Part shown: positions 2,528 to 8,949 of the stretch, one piece after another
Layout: each line of letters opens with the position of its first letter
How positions within the stretch are numbered: the first letter of the stretch is position 1
DNA from: Chloroflexota bacterium
Lineage (GTDB): Bacteria > Chloroflexota > Anaerolineae > Anaerolineales > Villigracilaceae
Assembly: GCA_016191845.1 (NCBI GenBank)
Contig: JACPVF010000011.1
Location: 186,001 to 250,000 of the forward strand
DNA: 64,000 nucleotides
Reading direction: 5' to 3'
Position numbers and translations under genes: made by a program
The notes under the pieces: model-generated
Databases searched by the model: none
What the model was told of the DNA's origin: nothing
Seen by the model: the letters and a program-made list of their open reading frames with translations, nothing else

Positions 2528-2991
2528 TTGGAATCGACCTGGAAATACATTGTGGGGCTTTTGGCCGCTGTAGTGATCATTTTTGTGTCCATCATGTCAC
2601 CTCTTGGAAAAGCATTGATATTAAATTTCAATCGCTCAAAATGGGAAGGACAAAATATTACTCACTACCGCTTTAAATTAGACATCATATGCCTGTGCCC
2701 ATTTCAGGATAGTATTCCTATGACCATTGAAGTCAGGGGTGGTCAAATCGTTTCTGTGAAAGACATAAATGGAATGGATCTCGATAAACACGATCTCAAA
2801 GTTTTCGAGCGAGCGGGCACTATCGAAAGATTATTTGACATTGCCAAAGAATCATATCAAAAGCATTCTCGGCAAGCGTGTCTTATAACGCTGAAATGGG
2901 TTTTCCTGACAGCATCGAATCTGATTGGGATGAGAACGTGTATGATGATGAGATAACTTACAAAGTCAGCGAGTTTGAAGTTTTGCCCTGA
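2528..2991 (+). pseudogene. Frameshifted DUF6174-type protein
   Basis: A membrane-anchored paralogue of the lipoprotein at 7502-7951. The start is TTG at 2528, with AAGGAGG five bases upstream and an N-terminal membrane segment. The shared core (THYRF, then a short Cys-x-Cys stretch, then IEVRGGQIVS) is intact to about 2875. The frame from the TTG then runs into an unrelated tail ending at 2956. Reading one frame over from about 2878 gives VSYNAEMGFPDSI and ends in SEFEVLP with a stop at 2989-2991, matching the family C-terminus (VSNFEVLK in the paralogue). One base appears to be missing between about 2873 and 2880. A sequencing error cannot be excluded. GC is lower than in the neighbours. 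The family's function is not established. Confidence 0.75.
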
Positions 2992-3059: not shown

Positions 3060-4238
3060 ATGCTTCCACTTATCATTTCCACCCTCGTCTTCCTGATTGG
3101 CGTCGCCATCATTTATTGGCTGCACAATCAATATCATCTCGACATCATTGTCGAGCCTGTTCCTTCGACTACGCTCAGGGCGAAAGGGGCGGCTCCGCTG
3201 ATCTCGGTCTGCATCCCCGCGCGGAATGAGGAGCGCAATATCGGCAGGTGTGTCGAGGCAGTGCTGGCGCAGGATTATCCCAACTTCGAGGTCATCGTGC
3301 TGGATGACCGTTCGACGGATGCCACGCCTGGGGTTCTTCGTGACTTCGCGGTTCAGAACGACAGATTAAAAGTATTGCAAGGCGCGGACCTGCCCGCAGG
3401 CTGGGCGGGCAAGCCTCATGCGTTACATCAAACGACAAAAGTGGCACGCGGCGAGTGGTTGTGCTTCATCGATGCGGATACCTTCCTCGTGCCGCAAGCC
3501 TTGTCCGCAACGTATGCCAAGGCGGTCGAGACCCGCGCCGACATGCTGACCCTGATGACCTTCCAAATCCTGGGCTCGTTCTGGGAAAAGGCAGTCATGC
3601 CGCTGGTGATGACGGCGCTTTCGGTGGGATTCTCGCCGCGCAAGGTCAACGACCCGTCCACGCGGGATGCCATTGCCAACGGACAGTTCATCTTCATCAA
3701 GCGGACGGTCTACGGCGCCATCGGCGGACATGAACGCGTCAAAGACCAGATCGTGGAGGATAAGGCCATCTCCGAACAGGTCAAGTGGAATGGCTATCGC
3801 CTGGTGGTGGCCGACGGGATGCAGGTGGCCAGCACGCGCATGTACACGTCCCTGCCCGAGATGTGGGAAGGCTGGACCAAAAACATCTACCTCGGTCTGT
3901 CGGACCATCCGTCCATGCTGCTATTGGGCGCCTTCGGTGCGACACTGGCCGTGCTGGCGGCGCTGGCCCTGCCCGCCTGGCCCCTGCTCGGGCTGACGTG
4001 GCTGCTCAACGGCGGCGGGTGGCAGGCAGCGGCCGTGATGGCAGAGTCGGCCCTCTTGTGGGCGTACCTGCTCAGGGTCCGCGCTGGGGTGGCGCAGAAG
4101 ATGAAAATCTCGGGCTGGTGGGCGCTGTCCACACCGTTGGGGGCGGGTGTCTTCGCCGCCATGATGCTCACCTCCGCGTGGAAGGTGTTATCGGGCCAGG
4201 GGGTGACATGGAAGGGCCGCGTGTATTCCAAGAAGTGA
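3060..4238 (+). CDS. Family 2 membrane glycosyltransferase
   Basis: A processive-type or lipid-linked GT-A glycosyltransferase, predicted to be membrane bound. An N-terminal membrane helix (residues 3-22) precedes the GT2 domain. Visible motifs are the nucleotide-binding start SVCIPARNEERN (about 49-60), LDDRSTD (81-87), the metal-binding DAD (138-140) and an acceptor-site ED in IVEDKAIS (about 233). Two or three hydrophobic helices follow from about residue 285. The layout resembles hopanoid or carotenoid-associated glycosyltransferases (HpnB/CrtQ-like), but no hopanoid or carotenoid gene is adjacent, so the substrate is unknown. The ATG has no strong Shine-Dalgarno. The gene ends just before a strong terminator and appears to be a single unit. 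Confidence 0.75.
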   Translation: MLPLIISTLVFLIGVAIIYWLHNQYHLDIIVEPVPSTTLRAKGAAPLISVCIPARNEERNIGRCVEAVLAQDYPNFEVIVLDDRSTDATPGVLRDFAVQNDRLKVLQGADLPAGWAGKPHALHQTTKVARGEWLCFIDADTFLVPQALSATYAKAVETRADMLTLMTFQILGSFWEKAVMPLVMTALSVGFSPRKVNDPSTRDAIANGQFIFIKRTVYGAIGGHERVKDQIVEDKAISEQVKWNGYRLVVADGMQVASTRMYTSLPEMWEGWTKNIYLGLSDHPSMLLLGAFGATLAVLAALALPAWPLLGLTWLLNGGGWQAAAVMAESALLWAYLLRVRAGVAQKMKISGWWALSTPLGAGVFAAMMLTSAWKVLSGQGVTWKGRVYSKK

Positions 4239-4240
4239 CG

Positions 4241-4279
4241 AAACTCCCTTCGCTGGCTTTGCGAAGGGAGTTTTCTTTT
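4241..4279 (+). terminator. Rho-independent terminator after the glycosyltransferase gene
   Basis: A stem of AACTCCCTTCGC and its complement with a seven-base loop is followed by TTTTCTTTT. It separates the glycosyltransferase from the copper genes that start just downstream. Confidence 0.85.
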
Positions 4280-4281
4280 GC

Positions 4282-4334
4282 TTGACAATCTTTATCGCAT
4301 TTGTTATATTTTGGTTTATTCTGATAAATATAAC
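4282..4334 (+). promoter_or_regulatory. Promoter with nested operator-like palindromes
   Basis: TTGACA (4282-4287) and TATATT (4305-4310) are separated by 17 bp, close to the consensus for the main sigma factor. Two nested inverted repeats overlap the -10 and likely start site: GTTATATTT (4303-4311) with AAATATAAC (4326-4334), and inside them TTTAT-TCTG-ATAAA (4315-4328). This is a natural place for a repressor to bind, probably the DeoR-type HTH protein encoded 13 bp downstream, which is inference. Confidence 0.75.
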
Positions 4335-4346
4335 AAAAGGTAACAC

Positions 4347-4898
4347 ATGCCCCACTCCGCCAGCCGCGAACAGAAAATCCTCGAAGTCCTGAAAACCCAG
4401 GGCAGCGCGTCCATCCAGGAATTGACCGAAGCCTTGGGCGTTTCGGCAATGACCGTACATCGCGACTTGAACCGCATGGCGGCGGCGGGGTCGATCCAGA
4501 AAACACACGGGGGCGTGTCGCTGGCGACAGGCTCGACAAGCGGATGCTCCATGTGCGGCAAGCCCATCCACGAGCGGACCGTCTTCCTGTTCCACCTGCC
4601 CAGCGGCGAACAGCGCCGCGCCTGCTGTGCCCACTGCGGCCTGATGCTGCAACAAGGTACCCCAGGCGCCAGCCACGCCATGACCGCCGATTTCCTGCAC
4701 GGACACATGGTCAGTACGGGGCAGGCGATCTTTTTGCTCGGGGGTGAACTGACGGTCTGCTGTGTGCCGAGTGTGTTGAGTTTCGGTTCTTACGCCGGGG
4801 CGGAACGCTTCCAAAAGGGATTCGGCGGACGGCTGGCAAATTTGCAGGAAGCCATGCATTTCCTACAGGAGAGCATGCCCACCAGCCCTTCTGCATAA
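4347..4898 (+). CDS. DeoR-type HTH regulator fused to a NosL-like domain
   Basis: A two-domain protein of 183 residues. Residues 7-58 are a DeoR-type winged helix (QKILEVLKTQGSASIQEL, GVSAMTVHRDL, then the wing IQKTHGGV). DeoR proteins normally continue into a sugar-phosphate sensor. Here the rest (about 65-175) resembles NosL, the copper-binding accessory lipoprotein of nitrous oxide reductase: CSMCG at 67-71, further cysteines in CCAHC (93-97) and CC (138-139), an aspartate-containing TADFLHG, a hydrophobic AIFLLGG, and a C-terminal RFQKGFGGRL. There is no signal peptide, so the protein should stay in the cytoplasm. It is followed 26 bp later by a PCu(A)C copper chaperone. I infer a metal- or copper-responsive repressor of its own small operon. 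The fold assignment of the second half is by eye. Confidence 0.7.
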   Translation: MPHSASREQKILEVLKTQGSASIQELTEALGVSAMTVHRDLNRMAAAGSIQKTHGGVSLATGSTSGCSMCGKPIHERTVFLFHLPSGEQRRACCAHCGLMLQQGTPGASHAMTADFLHGHMVSTGQAIFLLGGELTVCCVPSVLSFGSYAGAERFQKGFGGRLANLQEAMHFLQESMPTSPSA

Positions 4899-4924
4899 GC
4901 TTCCAAAATAACCAAAGGAGAACC

Positions 4925-5386
4925 ATGAAGAAATTTTTGATGTTTGCCCTGGCGGGCATGTTGTTGTTGAGTGCCTGCGGGGCAAGCGGAGGCGAAGTGA
5001 TCGAAGCTCATGACCCGTGGGCGCGGCCCGCCATGAAAGGTGAGAACAGCGCCATTTATCTGCTTCTCCACAACCACACCGCCGAGGACGATGAACTGGT
5101 CAGCGTTTCGAGCGACGTGGCAGCTAGCGTGGAACTGCACGAGAGCAAAATGGTGGAAGGCAGCGACATGATGGAGATGACGCCCGTGGCGTCCGTACCC
5201 CTGCCCGCCGACGGCGAGGTGGAATTCAAGCCGGGCGGCCTGCACATCATGCTGTTCGGCCTGAACCGTGACCTAAAGGTGGGCGACCAGTTCGACATCA
5301 CCCTGACCTTCAAAAGCGGCCTGATCCTCAAAGTGACCGTCCCCGTCATGGAAAACATGGACGACACCCACATGGACGGCATGTAG
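4925..5386 (+). CDS. PCu(A)C-type copper chaperone lipoprotein
   Basis: A periplasm- or surface-facing copper(I) chaperone of the PCuAC (DUF461) family, which delivers copper to cuproenzymes such as the CuA site of cytochrome oxidase. A signal peptide ending LLLSAC gives a lipid-anchored Cys at about residue 18. The family ligands are visible: a His-Met stretch (VELHESKMVEG, then MMEM) and a second His-Met pair in GGLHIMLFG, in the usual H-M...H-x-M order. The C-terminal tail MDDTHMDGM is also Met/His-rich. The start has AAAGGAG at good spacing. It is probably cotranscribed with the HTH-NosL gene, and a terminator follows. Confidence 0.85.
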   Translation: MKKFLMFALAGMLLLSACGASGGEVIEAHDPWARPAMKGENSAIYLLLHNHTAEDDELVSVSSDVAASVELHESKMVEGSDMMEMTPVASVPLPADGEVEFKPGGLHIMLFGLNRDLKVGDQFDITLTFKSGLILKVTVPVMENMDDTHMDGM

Positions 5387-5408
5387 TCTCTCCCCTTATC
5401 CATTCAAT

Positions 5409-5437
5409 CCCCATCCTTTTGCAGGATGGGGATTTTT
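5409..5437 (+). terminator. Rho-independent terminator
   Basis: CCCCATCC and GGATGGGG form an 8-bp stem around a TTTTGCA loop, followed by ATTTTTT. It closes the copper operon before the nrf promoter. Confidence 0.85.
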
Positions 5438-5449
5438 TGATTCCCCATT

Positions 5450-5491
5450 TTGTGACTAAAGTCACAACAAATACGACAAATTCTATATAAA
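5450..5491 (+). promoter_or_regulatory. CRP/FNR-family operator and -10 upstream of nrfHA
   Basis: TTGTGACTAAAGTCACAA (5450-5467) has perfect TTGTGA/TCACAA half-sites six bases apart. This is the consensus described for the anaerobic nitrogen-oxide regulator HcpR, and it also fits CRP. A TATAAA at 5486-5491 would put transcription start near 5498 and the palindrome centre near -40, the usual position for a class II activator that replaces the -35 contact. No regulator gene of this family is in the window, so which protein binds is open. Confidence 0.7.
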
Positions 5492-5531
5492 ATTAGAGCA
5501 GGATTAATATTCAATTCCGTAAAGGTGCCGC

Positions 5532-6020
5532 ATGTCCAAAATCCCGATCTTCATCGCCATTGCCGCCGCAGCGATCGCCCTGGGGGTCTTCGTCCTGGTG
5601 ACCGATGCGCCCGCCTATGCGGGTACTGCTTCGGAAACCTGCAACAACTGCCACGTAATGGAACCCATGTACGAGAACTACTATCACGCCGCCCACCAGC
5701 GCGCGGCCGAGTGTGCCGACTGTCACCTGCCCCATCAGAACGTCATCGCCTACTACATCGAAAAGGGACGCCAGGGCGCGCATGATGTGTACGTCTTCAG
5801 CCTCGGCAAGACGCCCGAGGTGATCCGTGCCAATGAGCACTCGCAGGAGATCATCCAGTCGAACTGCATCCGCTGCCACCAGCAGACGGTCGAGACCATC
5901 ACGATGGGCGCCCAACCCTTCGACCGTCAGTGCTGGGACTGTCACCGCAACGTGGCCCACGGTCCGCGCGGACTCTCGAATACCCCCTATCAGGACTCCA
6001 CTCTCTATCCCATCAAATAG
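5532..6020 (+). CDS. nrfH: NrfH, tetraheme quinol dehydrogenase of the nitrite reductase complex
   Basis: Membrane-anchored NapC/NirT-type cytochrome c that oxidises quinol and passes electrons to NrfA. An uncleaved N-terminal helix (about residues 4-24) anchors it. Four heme sites are present in 162 residues: CNNCH, CADCH, CIRCH and CWDCH, the number and spacing expected for NrfH. The early CNNCHVMEPMYE resembles the region of NrfH that supplies the unusual methionine heme ligand. The start has AAAGGTG upstream. nrfA follows after 12 bp, the standard nrfHA operon of anaerobes that make ammonium from nitrite. Confidence 0.93.
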   Translation: MSKIPIFIAIAAAAIALGVFVLVTDAPAYAGTASETCNNCHVMEPMYENYYHAAHQRAAECADCHLPHQNVIAYYIEKGRQGAHDVYVFSLGKTPEVIRANEHSQEIIQSNCIRCHQQTVETITMGAQPFDRQCWDCHRNVAHGPRGLSNTPYQDSTLYPIK

Positions 6021-6032
6021 GAGAATGCATCC

Positions 6033-7391
6033 ATGAAACGCTATACCACCTTAATCCTTGTCGGCATCATCGTATTGCTGGCCGCCGTGTTGACGGGGGT
6101 GCTGGTCTTCATCAAGAGCCAGCCCACCCAGGAACGTGCCGTGGCCCCCATCGTCGAGATTCAACCGATGGAACCCGATTCCTCGAAGTGGGGCATCAAC
6201 TTCCCCAACCAGTGGAACTCGCTCCAAAAGACCGCTACCAACAACATCGACACCACCTATGGCGGCTCGTCCAAGTTCTCGTGGCTGGAACGTGATCCGC
6301 GACAGAAGATCCTCTTCGCGGGCTATCCTTTCAGCAAGGAATATAACGACGACCGTGGTCACATGAACGCGCTGGAGGATGTCCGCAGCACCAAGCGTCT
6401 GAACCTGAACGACGAGGATCCCAAACACACACCCGCCACCTGCTATTCCTGCAAGAGTTCCAACAACCCTGGCTTGTGGGCTGATATGGGCATGGCCACC
6501 TTCGACGCCATGACCTTCAACGAGATGACGCCCAACATCCAGGAACCCATCGGCTGCGCCAACTGCCACGAAGCGGGCACCATGCGTCTGATCGTCACCA
6601 ACCCCGCGCTCGATGAGGCCCTCAAGGCCCAGGGCAAGGACTGGCATGACTTCACCCGCCAGGAGATGCGTTCGCTGGTATGCGCCAACTGCCACGTCGA
6701 GTATTATTTCGCGGGCCCCGACAAATACCTGACCTTCCCGTGGGCCAATGGTACACGCATCGACCAGATTGTCTCGTATTATGAAGAGAATGGTTTCAAG
6801 GATTGGGAGTATCCTGAGACGGGCACGCCCATGCTCAAGGCCCAGCATCCCGATTACGAGACCTACACCGCGGGCTCCACGCACTACAACGCGGGCGTGG
6901 CCTGCGCCGACTGCCACATGCCCTACGTGCGTGATGGCGCTTCGAAGTACTCCATGCATGACGTCCACTCGCCGCTGCTCAACCCTGAGCTGGCCTGTGG
7001 GCAGTGCCATAGCGACACCGATGCCGTGGTGCGCCGCGTCAACCTGATCCAGCAGCAGGTGTTCACCACCAAGCAGTCCACCGAGGATGCCGTCATCGAC
7101 GCGATCACCGCACTCAAGGCTGCGGCCGCCAACCCCAACGCCGACCAGGACCTGCTCACCCAGGCCCGCAACCTGCATCGCAAGGCCCAGTTCATGTGGG
7201 ACTTCGTCTCCGCCGAGAACAGCATGGGCTTCCACAACCCTGAGTACACGCTCAAGATCCTGGCCGATGCCACCAACCTGGCCCGCCAGGCCCAAATGCT
7301 GGCCGCGCAATCGGTCAACGATCCGAGCCTGCTCACCACGGGTGCCTACTATACCCAGACGGGCGCCCCCCTGCCCACGCCCATTCCCTAA
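6033..7391 (+). CDS. nrfA: NrfA, ammonia-forming cytochrome c nitrite reductase
   Basis: Periplasm-side pentaheme enzyme that reduces nitrite to ammonium with six electrons. An N-terminal hydrophobic segment (7-26) is a signal or anchor. The catalytic heme has the diagnostic CXXCK motif (CYSCK, about 137-141), with lysine as proximal ligand. Four CXXCH sites follow: CANCH (about 175), CANCH with the active-site tyrosine stretch VEYYF next to it, CADCH and CGQCH. Its 452 residues are slightly short but within the family range. Downstream is a perfect-stem terminator, so nrfHA forms a two-gene operon driven from about 5450. Confidence 0.95.
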   Translation: MKRYTTLILVGIIVLLAAVLTGVLVFIKSQPTQERAVAPIVEIQPMEPDSSKWGINFPNQWNSLQKTATNNIDTTYGGSSKFSWLERDPRQKILFAGYPFSKEYNDDRGHMNALEDVRSTKRLNLNDEDPKHTPATCYSCKSSNNPGLWADMGMATFDAMTFNEMTPNIQEPIGCANCHEAGTMRLIVTNPALDEALKAQGKDWHDFTRQEMRSLVCANCHVEYYFAGPDKYLTFPWANGTRIDQIVSYYEENGFKDWEYPETGTPMLKAQHPDYETYTAGSTHYNAGVACADCHMPYVRDGASKYSMHDVHSPLLNPELACGQCHSDTDAVVRRVNLIQQQVFTTKQSTEDAVIDAITALKAAAANPNADQDLLTQARNLHRKAQFMWDFVSAENSMGFHNPEYTLKILADATNLARQAQMLAAQSVNDPSLLTTGAYYTQTGAPLPTPIP

Positions 7392-7408
7392 GCGTTTCGG
7401 ACTTTCAC

Positions 7409-7445
7409 AAACTGGCGCAGACCTTGGTCTGCGCCAGTTTTTTTT
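7409..7445 (+). terminator. Rho-independent terminator after nrfA
   Basis: A perfect 15-bp inverted repeat (AAACTGGCGCAGACC and complement, two-base centre) runs straight into a T tract. Confidence 0.92.
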
Positions 7446-7501
7446 AAAAGCGGGGAACATTATGGCCAAACTTGTCGTCCTGCCCGCATAGGAGATACGC
7501 C

Positions 7502-7951
7502 ATGAGAAAAATCATCTTTATCGTTTTAGCCATCGCCATGACCGCCTGCGCCATCGGCGCAAAAAACGACCTGGCCGCCAATCAACAAAAATGGCAGACC
7601 AGCGGCGTGACCCATTACCGCTTCGATCTCGACGTCATCTGCTTCTGCGCCTTCCGTGATCGGATGCCGCTGCACATCGAGGTCAAGGATGGACAGGTCG
7701 TCTCGATGACCTACGCCGATGGGACCGCAATCCCCGCCGATGACCCGATCCATGAGACCTTCGACCGCTACGCCACCTTCGACGCCCTTTTTGCGGACCT
7801 TCAGTCTGGTCCCGCTTCACAGGCCGAAGAGGTCACGATCCAATACGATCCCACCTACGGCTTCCCCAGCGACGTCAACATTGACCAGATCAAGGCTGCC
7901 ATGGATGACGAGCTACATTTGACGGTGTCGAATTTCGAGGTATTGAAGTAA
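7502..7951 (+). CDS. DUF6174-type lipoprotein
   Basis: A 149-residue secreted lipoprotein of unknown function. The signal peptide MRKIIFIVLAIAMTAC has a lipobox Cys at residue 16. The mature part carries the features shared with the broken copy at 2528: WQTSGVTHYRFDLDVICFCAF, then IEVKDGQVVS, a YDPTYGFPSDV turn and a C-terminal VSNFEVLK. A GGAGA ribosome site at 7491 and ATG at 7502 choose this start over an upstream in-frame codon that lies inside the nrfA terminator region. It has its own downstream terminator. The paralogous pair flanks the copper/nitrite block, but no functional link is shown. Confidence 0.75.
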   Translation: MRKIIFIVLAIAMTACAIGAKNDLAANQQKWQTSGVTHYRFDLDVICFCAFRDRMPLHIEVKDGQVVSMTYADGTAIPADDPIHETFDRYATFDALFADLQSGPASQAEEVTIQYDPTYGFPSDVNIDQIKAAMDDELHLTVSNFEVLK

Positions 7952-7984
7952 ATTAATTTCGCCCTGAGCGGAGTAATCCAACAT

Positions 7985-8014
7985 AAGAGGTCGCGCTGAT
8001 TAGCGCGACCTCTT
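7985..8014. terminator. Bidirectional terminator
   Basis: AAGAGGTCGCGCT and its complement form a 13-bp stem with loop GATT between two converging genes. The stem starts and ends in A/T-rich sequence, so it can serve both strands. Confidence 0.8.
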
Positions 8015-8019
8015 ATTAT

Positions 8020-8949
8020 TTATTCCTTCGGCGCATCGCGGACGATGTAGAGCGGCCTGCCTTTGGCCTCATCGTACAGACGGCCAATGTATTCGCCCAG
8101 AATGCCCAGCGAGATCAACTGTACGCCACCAAGGAAGAGCACCGAAATGAGGGTGGTAGCCTGTCCCTCGAAGAAATGCGAGCCGATCAGACGCATGATC
8201 GCCACCACAGGAATGGCCAGGATTGACACACCCGCTGAAAGGAAGCCAAAGAACGTAGCCACCTGCAACGGGAAATACGAGAAACTGGTGATGGCGTTCA
8301 ACGCCAGGCGCAACATCTTCTTGAACGGATACTTGGTCACGCCCGCATGACGGGCGGCGCGCTTGTACTCCACGCCGATCTGCTTGAAGCCCACCCAGGC
8401 CGACATGCCGCGCGGAAAGCGATGACGTTCCTTCATCTGCTTGAGCACCTCCACCACCTTGCGGTCCATCAGGCGGAAATCGCCCGTGTCGACGGGAATC
8501 TTCACATCAGTGATGCGGTAGATGAGGCGATAGAACATGGAGGCAGTGAATTTCTTGAACCAGGTCTCGCCTTCACGTTCGGCTCGCACGGCATAGACCA
8601 CCTCGTAACCTTCCTGCCATTTCTTCGCGAGGTCGAGGATGACCTCGGGCGGGTCCTGCAGGTCGGCATCGATGATGACCACGGCGTCGCCGCGCGCGAA
8701 GTCCCAGCCAGCGGTGATGGCAATCTGATGTCCGAAATTGCGGGCAAAGATAACGGGGCGGATATGCTTGTCGACGGCGGCCAGTTCGCGGATCTTCTCG
8801 GTCGAGCCGTCGGTCGAGCCGTCGTCGACGAGGATCAACTCCCAGGGCTTACCCGTGGATTCCATCACTTCGGTGACACGGTGATGCAGAAGGGGCAGGT
8901 TTTCGATTTCGTTGTAGATGGGCGCGATAATCGAATAGGTGATTTTCAT
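8020..8949 (-). CDS. GtrB/DPMS-like family 2 glycosyltransferase
   Basis: Transfers a sugar from a nucleotide sugar to a polyprenyl phosphate at the inner membrane face, as in bactoprenol glucosyltransferase GtrB or ArnC. The GT2 domain begins at once ([13 protein letters not shown]). VDDGSTDGS lies at about 41-49, the metal-binding DADLQDPP at about 94-101 and [11 protein letters not shown] at about 156. Two C-terminal membrane helices (about 230-255 and 268-290) and the closing [19 protein letters not shown] are typical of this subgroup, and 309 residues is a normal length. No flippase or sugar-modification genes are adjacent, so the sugar is unknown. It lies 32 bp downstream of the AI-2E family gene and may be cotranscribed with it. 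Confidence 0.85.

Follow-up and report, generated by a model that had tools for sequence, protein, structure and literature searches.

What does a protein do that joins a DNA-binding helix-turn-helix to a domain resembling the copper chaperone NosL, and is it a new kind of sensor? The window analyzed here, a 64,000-nucleotide stretch of a 4.63-Mb Chloroflexota genome, raises this question through the gene at 4347-4898. A first-pass annotation described its product as a DeoR-type helix-turn-helix fused to a Cys-rich NosL-like copper domain, encoded beside a copper chaperone gene, and took it for an undescribed type of cytoplasmic copper or metal sensor. The reading that we favor, with a probability of roughly 70%, is a YcnK-type copper-responsive auto-repressor that uses cytosolic copper as co-repressor, such that the copper chaperone PCuAC is raised in copper scarcity.

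Domain make-up and fold of the regulator

The gene and its two domains are as follows.

4347-4898, forward strand: regulator of 183 amino acids, very probably of the YcnK type (open reading frame translation, Pfam, family alignment, predicted structure)
4365-4526, forward strand: DeoR-type winged helix-turn-helix, residues 7-60 (Pfam PF08220, HTH_DeoR, E 2.7e-17)
4530-4874, forward strand: Cys-rich domain with a predicted NosL fold, residues 62-176 (predicted structure, alignment, structural comparison)

The open reading frame agrees in position with the one annotated previously. HTH_DeoR was the strongest Pfam domain match in the protein, bearing out the DNA-binding half of the earlier description. 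The helix-turn-helix starts at residue 7, and no export signal was visible by eye at the N-terminus. The second half proved more elusive. Taken alone, the window protein matched Pfam NosL over residues 119-168 with an E value of 0.011 and 16.5 bits, below the cut-off of 24, so that a single sequence does not suffice, by the Pfam standard, to establish a likeness to NosL. The window genome gave no NosL match above cut-off in Pfam, and a PDB search with the single protein returned weak helix-turn-helix matches only. In NCBIfam, the protein scored below cut-off for all 25 families listed of 37, and the 72 sensor domains of the family weakly matched 15 models, with no NosL or copper model among them.

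We therefore turned to the family as a whole. An initial search for relatives yielded 47 loci; eight of these (L045-L052) had the helix-turn-helix only and were excluded from all alignments and counts. Relatives with both domains were found at 39 other loci, which together with the window protein form an alignment of 40 rows (A1; 38 Chloroflexota and 2 Bacillaceae). Every row matched Pfam NosL at E ≤ 0.1, the best at 9.3e-9. When the A1 profile was compared with the PDB, solved NosL chains were matched at E values of 1.5e-6, 3.3e-6, and 3.6e-6, outranking all helix-turn-helix proteins, and a fourth NosL structure, 2hpu, followed at 0.016.

Structure prediction gave the same picture. AlphaFold2 modeled the full-length protein with a mean pLDDT of 89.1 and a pTM of 0.65. 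In Foldseek, this model had NosL 7og7 as its first PDB match (E 5.7e-6), and model residues 62-176 aligned to this chain over 112 residues with a Z score of 14.7 and an rmsd of 2.3. A model of the sensor domain only, made from 72 sequences (pLDDT 89.8, pTM 0.84), aligned to 7og7 over 112 residues with Z 15.0 and rmsd 2.4, to the NosL chains of NosDFYL with Z 12.4-13.2, to NosL 2hpu with Z 8.0, and to the organomercurial lyase MerB with Z 5.8-8.5; the remaining rows listed had Z ≤ 4.6. Collectively, the Pfam matches across A1, the PDB profile matches, and the alignment of the predicted structure settle the NosL likeness of the C-terminal domain, which in the model has the NosL fold. The earlier proposal of a Cys-rich NosL-like domain is upheld by fold, family profile, and invariant cysteines, even with the lone sequence sub-threshold.

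Six cysteines (C67, C70, C94, C97, C138, and C139) are invariant in A1, as are S33, T36, R39, and K52 of the helix-turn-helix. A second alignment (A2) of 72 proteins, 41 from Chloroflexota and 31 from Bacillales, has C67, C70, C94, H96, C97, D115, C138, C139, P141, F146, and G161 (window numbering) in 72/72 rows, counts that include one sequence, L006, restored by hand as the sole failure of a sensor-domain extraction that required the cysteine pattern. C93 is present in at least 90% of the rows of either alignment. C67xxC70 and C94xxC97 have a spacing like that of a treble-clef metal site. In the family profile alignment, C138-C139 fall where NosL has Ala-Met, the Met being presumably a copper ligand in NosL. 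The window protein further differs from NosL (7og7, 7osf), a lipoprotein copper chaperone for nitrous oxide reductase with which it shares the fold of residues 62-176 and the CxxC knuckle, in beginning with a helix-turn-helix rather than an export signal.

The predicted PCuAC operon and operator

The DNA flanking the regulator gene has these features.

4240-4274, forward strand: terminator-like hairpin (14-pair stem, T-rich tail) that follows the glycosyltransferase gene upstream
4282-4310, forward strand: sigma-70-type promoter, TTGACA-17-TATATT, 11/12 matches, with the -10 at 4305-4310 (promoter scan)
4302-4345, no strand: predicted operator with inverted 15-bp arms at 4302-4316 and 4331-4345 (dyad test on Chloroflexota loci)
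4925-5386, forward strand: copper chaperone PCuAC (PF04314, E 3.8e-36), carrying a lipoprotein-like signal read by eye (LLSAC)
5406-5434, forward strand: terminator-like hairpin that would close a two-gene operon (hairpin scan)

The adjoining copper chaperone gene seen by the first-pass annotation is indeed there. It starts 26 bp past the stop codon of the regulator, is the sole PCuAC match in the genome, and is predicted to be the second gene of a two-gene operon. The hairpin at 4240-4274 would separate the glycosyltransferase gene from this transcription unit. Terminator-like sites were common in the scanned segment (4200-5560), with six found and 1.5 expected, and the promoter was the only promoter-like site in the same segment (0.6 expected from shuffles). 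The TTGA of its -35 element recurs among relatives.

A survey of the 40 loci of A1 found PCuAC within 4.5 kb of the regulator in 34. In 28, it follows the regulator immediately on the same strand, with its start no more than 700 bases from that of the regulator; one of the 12 loci without a directly downstream copy, L016, ends at a contig edge. PCuAC was absent from L016, L033, L038, L039, L043, and L044. Among these, L038 has CopC-CopD-YtkA, L039 has CopC-CopD, and L043 has SCO1 and YtkA (Pfam). SCO1 is also present at L034 and L036. In the window, the operon has neither YcnJ (CopCD) nor YcnI (DUF1775) by Pfam, and no nos or mer gene was found among the seven proteins scanned between 2528 and 7951.

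Genes for NrfH and NrfA lie near the regulator in 18 and 17 of the 40 loci, respectively. We did not place nrfHA in the operon of the regulator by default, because the hairpin at 5406-5434 and a Crp/Fnr-like site intervene in the window. This site, a perfect palindrome (TTGTGACTAAAGTCACAA, 5450-5467), lies about 80 bp upstream of nrfH. A similar site with at least 10/12 matches precedes nrfH in 17/18 loci (0/200 shuffles each); the exception, L024, has 9/12 matches (11/200 shuffles). A protein cluster found near the regulator in 11 loci has a Crp/Fnr-like member at L010 (Pfam). At L010, L019, and L029, a GTGAC-N4-GTC-like sequence immediately precedes the -35 of the regulator promoter and may reflect shared Crp/Fnr-type control of the copper operon.

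Three further observations concern the surroundings. At L014, a 587-residue open reading frame (6608-8371, forward strand) matches PCuAC with an E value of 1.9e-195, a score that several joined PCuAC domains might produce. DUF6174 proteins flank the region in the window (2528-2956 and 7472-7951, Pfam), and DUF6174 genes occur near the regulator in 16/40 loci. Farther along, at about 11478-37089, open reading frames resemble by eye a purine-degradation cluster, with what we take to be xanthine dehydrogenase parts, two ABC transporter sets, carbamate kinase, two carbamoyltransferases, and adenine deaminase-like and SsnA-like proteins.

Upstream of the regulator, the arms of the predicted operator are 29 bp apart, start to start, with the left arm over the -10 and the right arm adjoining the start codon; a perfect inverted repeat (4300-4311 and 4326-4337) overlaps them. 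We scored each locus against a 14-letter arm consensus, with 20/28 as a pass. At a spacing of 29, 24 of 41 Chloroflexota loci passed, compared with a mean of 0.02 loci for resampled sequences, although these arm scores are partly circular and flattering because the consensus was derived from the same loci, and the left arm also takes in the -10. For two of these loci, L008 and L009, the pass at 29 requires a shifted register, and spacing 19 gives a better pair. A stricter threshold of 22/28 left 23 loci at a spacing of 29, 21 at 19, and 11 at 39, and three or fewer at each other spacing between 15 and 40, a 10-bp rhythm. With the 24 loci aligned on the dyad, mean information content was 1.38 and 1.65 bits in the arms and 0.88 in the center; outside these it was 0.61 in the -35 segment and 0.17-0.28 elsewhere. 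The overlap with the -10 should place the left arm ahead of the transcription start, which favors a DNA site over an RNA hairpin as the source of the symmetry.

The predicted operator is restricted in its distribution. At least 12 Chloroflexota loci do not have it, deeper branches included (e.g., L036-L042), and 2 of 32 Bacillales upstream regions reached 20/28 at a spacing of 29, leaving a single operator motif for both phyla unsupported. When any spacing was allowed and no more than 1/100 shuffles matched, 29/41 Chloroflexota loci had a site versus 10/32 from Bacillales. The 32 Bacillales rows include one repeat (L065, the same as L043) and one near-copy (L098 of L044). Within the window genome, the strict dyad TGTTATA-N12-34-TATAACA occurs once, and a reversed-pattern control gave no match. 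We accordingly dropped the idea of a wider regulon and propose no further targets, on the basis of this strict pattern.

Probable kinship with YcnK

The claim that fared worst was that of an undescribed type of sensor. Full-length relatives were found in 44 of 299 genomes of Bacillales, the order of Priestia koreensis, with E values of 4.6e-48 or lower, and patchily in 10 of 400 sampled Chloroflexota genomes, including 7 among the 25 listed from the window's own family. Both counts may be low, with 11 and 8 first-look candidates scored per genome in Bacillales and Chloroflexota, respectively. From the 44 Bacillales genomes, 29 loci were taken into A2 and the tree, along with L043 and L044; L055-L061, whose starts resemble those of loci already included, were omitted. 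In the resulting tree of 72 proteins, one branch with a support of 100/100 separates the 41 Chloroflexota proteins from the 31 of Bacillales.

Twenty Bacillales loci were read more widely. One of them, L112, has the regulator, CopC-CopD-YtkA, and DUF1775 in this order on one strand (Pfam), as in ycnKJI. Three more (L106, L108, and L117) have both partners, differently ordered. In L106 the two were confirmed by Pfam, as was CopCD in L117; both partners in L108 and the DUF1775 of L117 were assigned by BLAST clusters. The pair is absent from the other 16 loci, which argues that YcnJ and YcnI are a trait of the B. subtilis operon and do not define the protein. At several of these 16 loci, a YtkA-like cluster protein adjoins or lies near the regulator, with one member (L101) confirmed by Pfam. 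In a single comparison, the window protein was 31% identical to the L112 regulator over 178 amino acids spanning both domains (E 4e-33). A plasmid search with the L112 regulator gave two records. One, CP031730.1, encodes at 288224-288766 a relative 39% identical to the query on a plasmid labelled Stenotrophomonas rhizophila, a host distant from the others in the family; either the record or its label could be wrong.

Pfam NosL also matches the B. subtilis control genome. The matching gene, unnamed in the search output, is presumably ycnK, as B. subtilis is not known to carry a nos cluster. A likeness of YcnK to NosL may already be noted in the primary YcnK papers (2009 and 2012). We are aware of no experimental work on the Chloroflexota members of the family. 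Our literature searches found no paper joining a NosL domain or NosL-like protein with DeoR, with a helix-turn-helix in Chloroflexi, or with a transcriptional regulator. The accessible portions of PMC12154828 and PMC7558416 draw no connection between NosL and YcnK, and those of the YcnK literature do not describe how YcnK holds copper. In B. subtilis, YcnK is a copper-dependent repressor according to an excerpt of PMC8424229. The ycnKJI operon, whose make-up is given for this species in the available text of PMC12154828 and PMC8424229, is described in the former as more strongly expressed under copper starvation and less so under replete conditions.

The window protein very probably belongs to the YcnK type. 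It shares with YcnK the DeoR-type helix-turn-helix and NosL-like domain, the six cysteines common to its Bacillales relatives, one of which lies in a ycnKJI-type locus, and a link to genes for copper delivery or uptake. It differs in having PCuAC in its operon instead of YcnJ and YcnI, in lying on a separate branch, in an operator geometry unlike that of most Bacillales loci, and in sequence, with 31% identity to the L112 regulator. What is new is the Chloroflexota branch, with PCuAC as its operon cargo and a predicted operator.

Two other systems resemble the regulator. The N-terminal part of MerB is presumably helix-turn-helix-like and precedes a NosL-like core, and the whole window model matched MerB 3f2g_B in Foldseek with an E value of 1.1e-4 over 198 columns (rmsd 11.1), compared with 1.3e-2 over 118 columns for the sensor domain alone. 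The core similarity is nevertheless lower than that to NosL, and the window differs in having no mer gene among the scanned proteins. Because the whole model gave the better match, MerB could be derived from a two-domain regulator, and regulators with a helix-turn-helix and a NosL fold could constitute a class of cytosolic Cu(I) sensors that is ancient, spans phyla, and arose by turning a metal-delivery fold into a sensor. We consider this doubtful, since winged helices are widespread. A helix-turn-helix is likewise combined with a TRASH-type metal domain in CopR of Pyrococcus furiosus and related archaeal copper regulators; theirs is an Lrp-type helix-turn-helix with a single TRASH unit, unlike the duplicated NosL fold in the window protein.

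Proposed copper response and alternative readings

In the mechanism that we propose, the regulator and PCuAC genes, 26 bp apart, would be transcribed as one operon ending at the hairpin at 5406-5434. The N-terminal winged helix would bind the 44-bp operator covering the -10 of its own promoter, and the C-terminal domain, a cytosolic Cys-rich copy of the NosL fold, would bind Cu(I). The copper-bound regulator would then block its promoter; when cytosolic copper falls, it would be released, allowing the regulator and PCuAC to be made. Secreted PCuAC could supply secreted or membrane copper enzymes. Copper-using targets are likely in this organism because its genome has three COX2 matches and two to SCO1, one of the latter just above cut-off. 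Auto-repression at the dyad seems quite probable to us. That copper acts as co-repressor is somewhat likely by analogy, the direction of a scarcity response being taken from B. subtilis YcnK. A cytoplasmic copper sensor, as first suggested, remains the best reading of the NosL fold, the cysteines, the PCuAC context, and the predicted operator; it is the novelty of the type that did not hold.

The same sensor and operator could work with the opposite logic, in which copper releases the repressor, as with CsoR, and PCuAC is a buffer for excess copper. An excerpt of PMC13344008 proposes that Cu+ antagonizes YcnK, contrary to the wording elsewhere, and 3 of the 20 Bacillales loci (L101, L103, and L105; Pfam-confirmed at L101) have a heavy-metal P-type ATPase cluster in the vicinity. 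We judge this reading unlikely: YcnK is called a Cu-dependent repressor in the accessible part of PMC8424229, ycnKJI or YcnJ is induced by copper limitation (the excerpted PMC12154828, for ycnKJI), and the neighbors PCuAC, SCO1, YtkA, and CopCD are parts for delivery or uptake, not efflux.

The cysteines could instead hold zinc or sense thiol oxidation, making the protein a zinc or redox regulator for which the copper gene is merely a target. The two CxxC motifs are spaced as in a treble-clef zinc site, and the first half of the sensor weakly aligns to pre-60S ribosomal chains (8v83_u, presumably an L24e-type protein; Z 4.6, 44 residues). The NosL/MerB fold is itself described, in an excerpt of PMC4999995, as a duplicated, fused TRASH-like treble clef. 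The additional invariant pair C138-C139 in place of the Ala-Met of NosL, the copper genes nearby, and the reported response of YcnK to copper (PMC8424229 and PMC12154828, both in part) make this distinctly improbable.

A wholly new sensor class that reached the same architecture independently of YcnK would account for the branch separating Chloroflexota from Bacillales and for their differing upstream sites and operon contents, and we reject it as extremely unlikely given the domain order, residues, and context shared with the YcnK type: the two groups align over both domains, have six cysteines in common, and are bridged by Chloroflexota loci L038 and L039, which adjoin YcnJ-like genes. A cytosolic copper chaperone or store with a vestigial helix-turn-helix, suggested by NosL being a chaperone (PMC7558416, available text), is just as implausible against a helix-turn-helix that is the strongest domain match and retains invariant residues, and a recurrent dyad that overlaps the gene's own promoter.

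The window protein would extend the YcnK copper-sensor type from Bacillales to Chloroflexota, with PCuAC as a likely target and a predicted operator that can be tested. The predicted NosL fold of the sensing half, in turn, exposes C67/C70/C94/C97 and C138/C139 to direct mutation tests.
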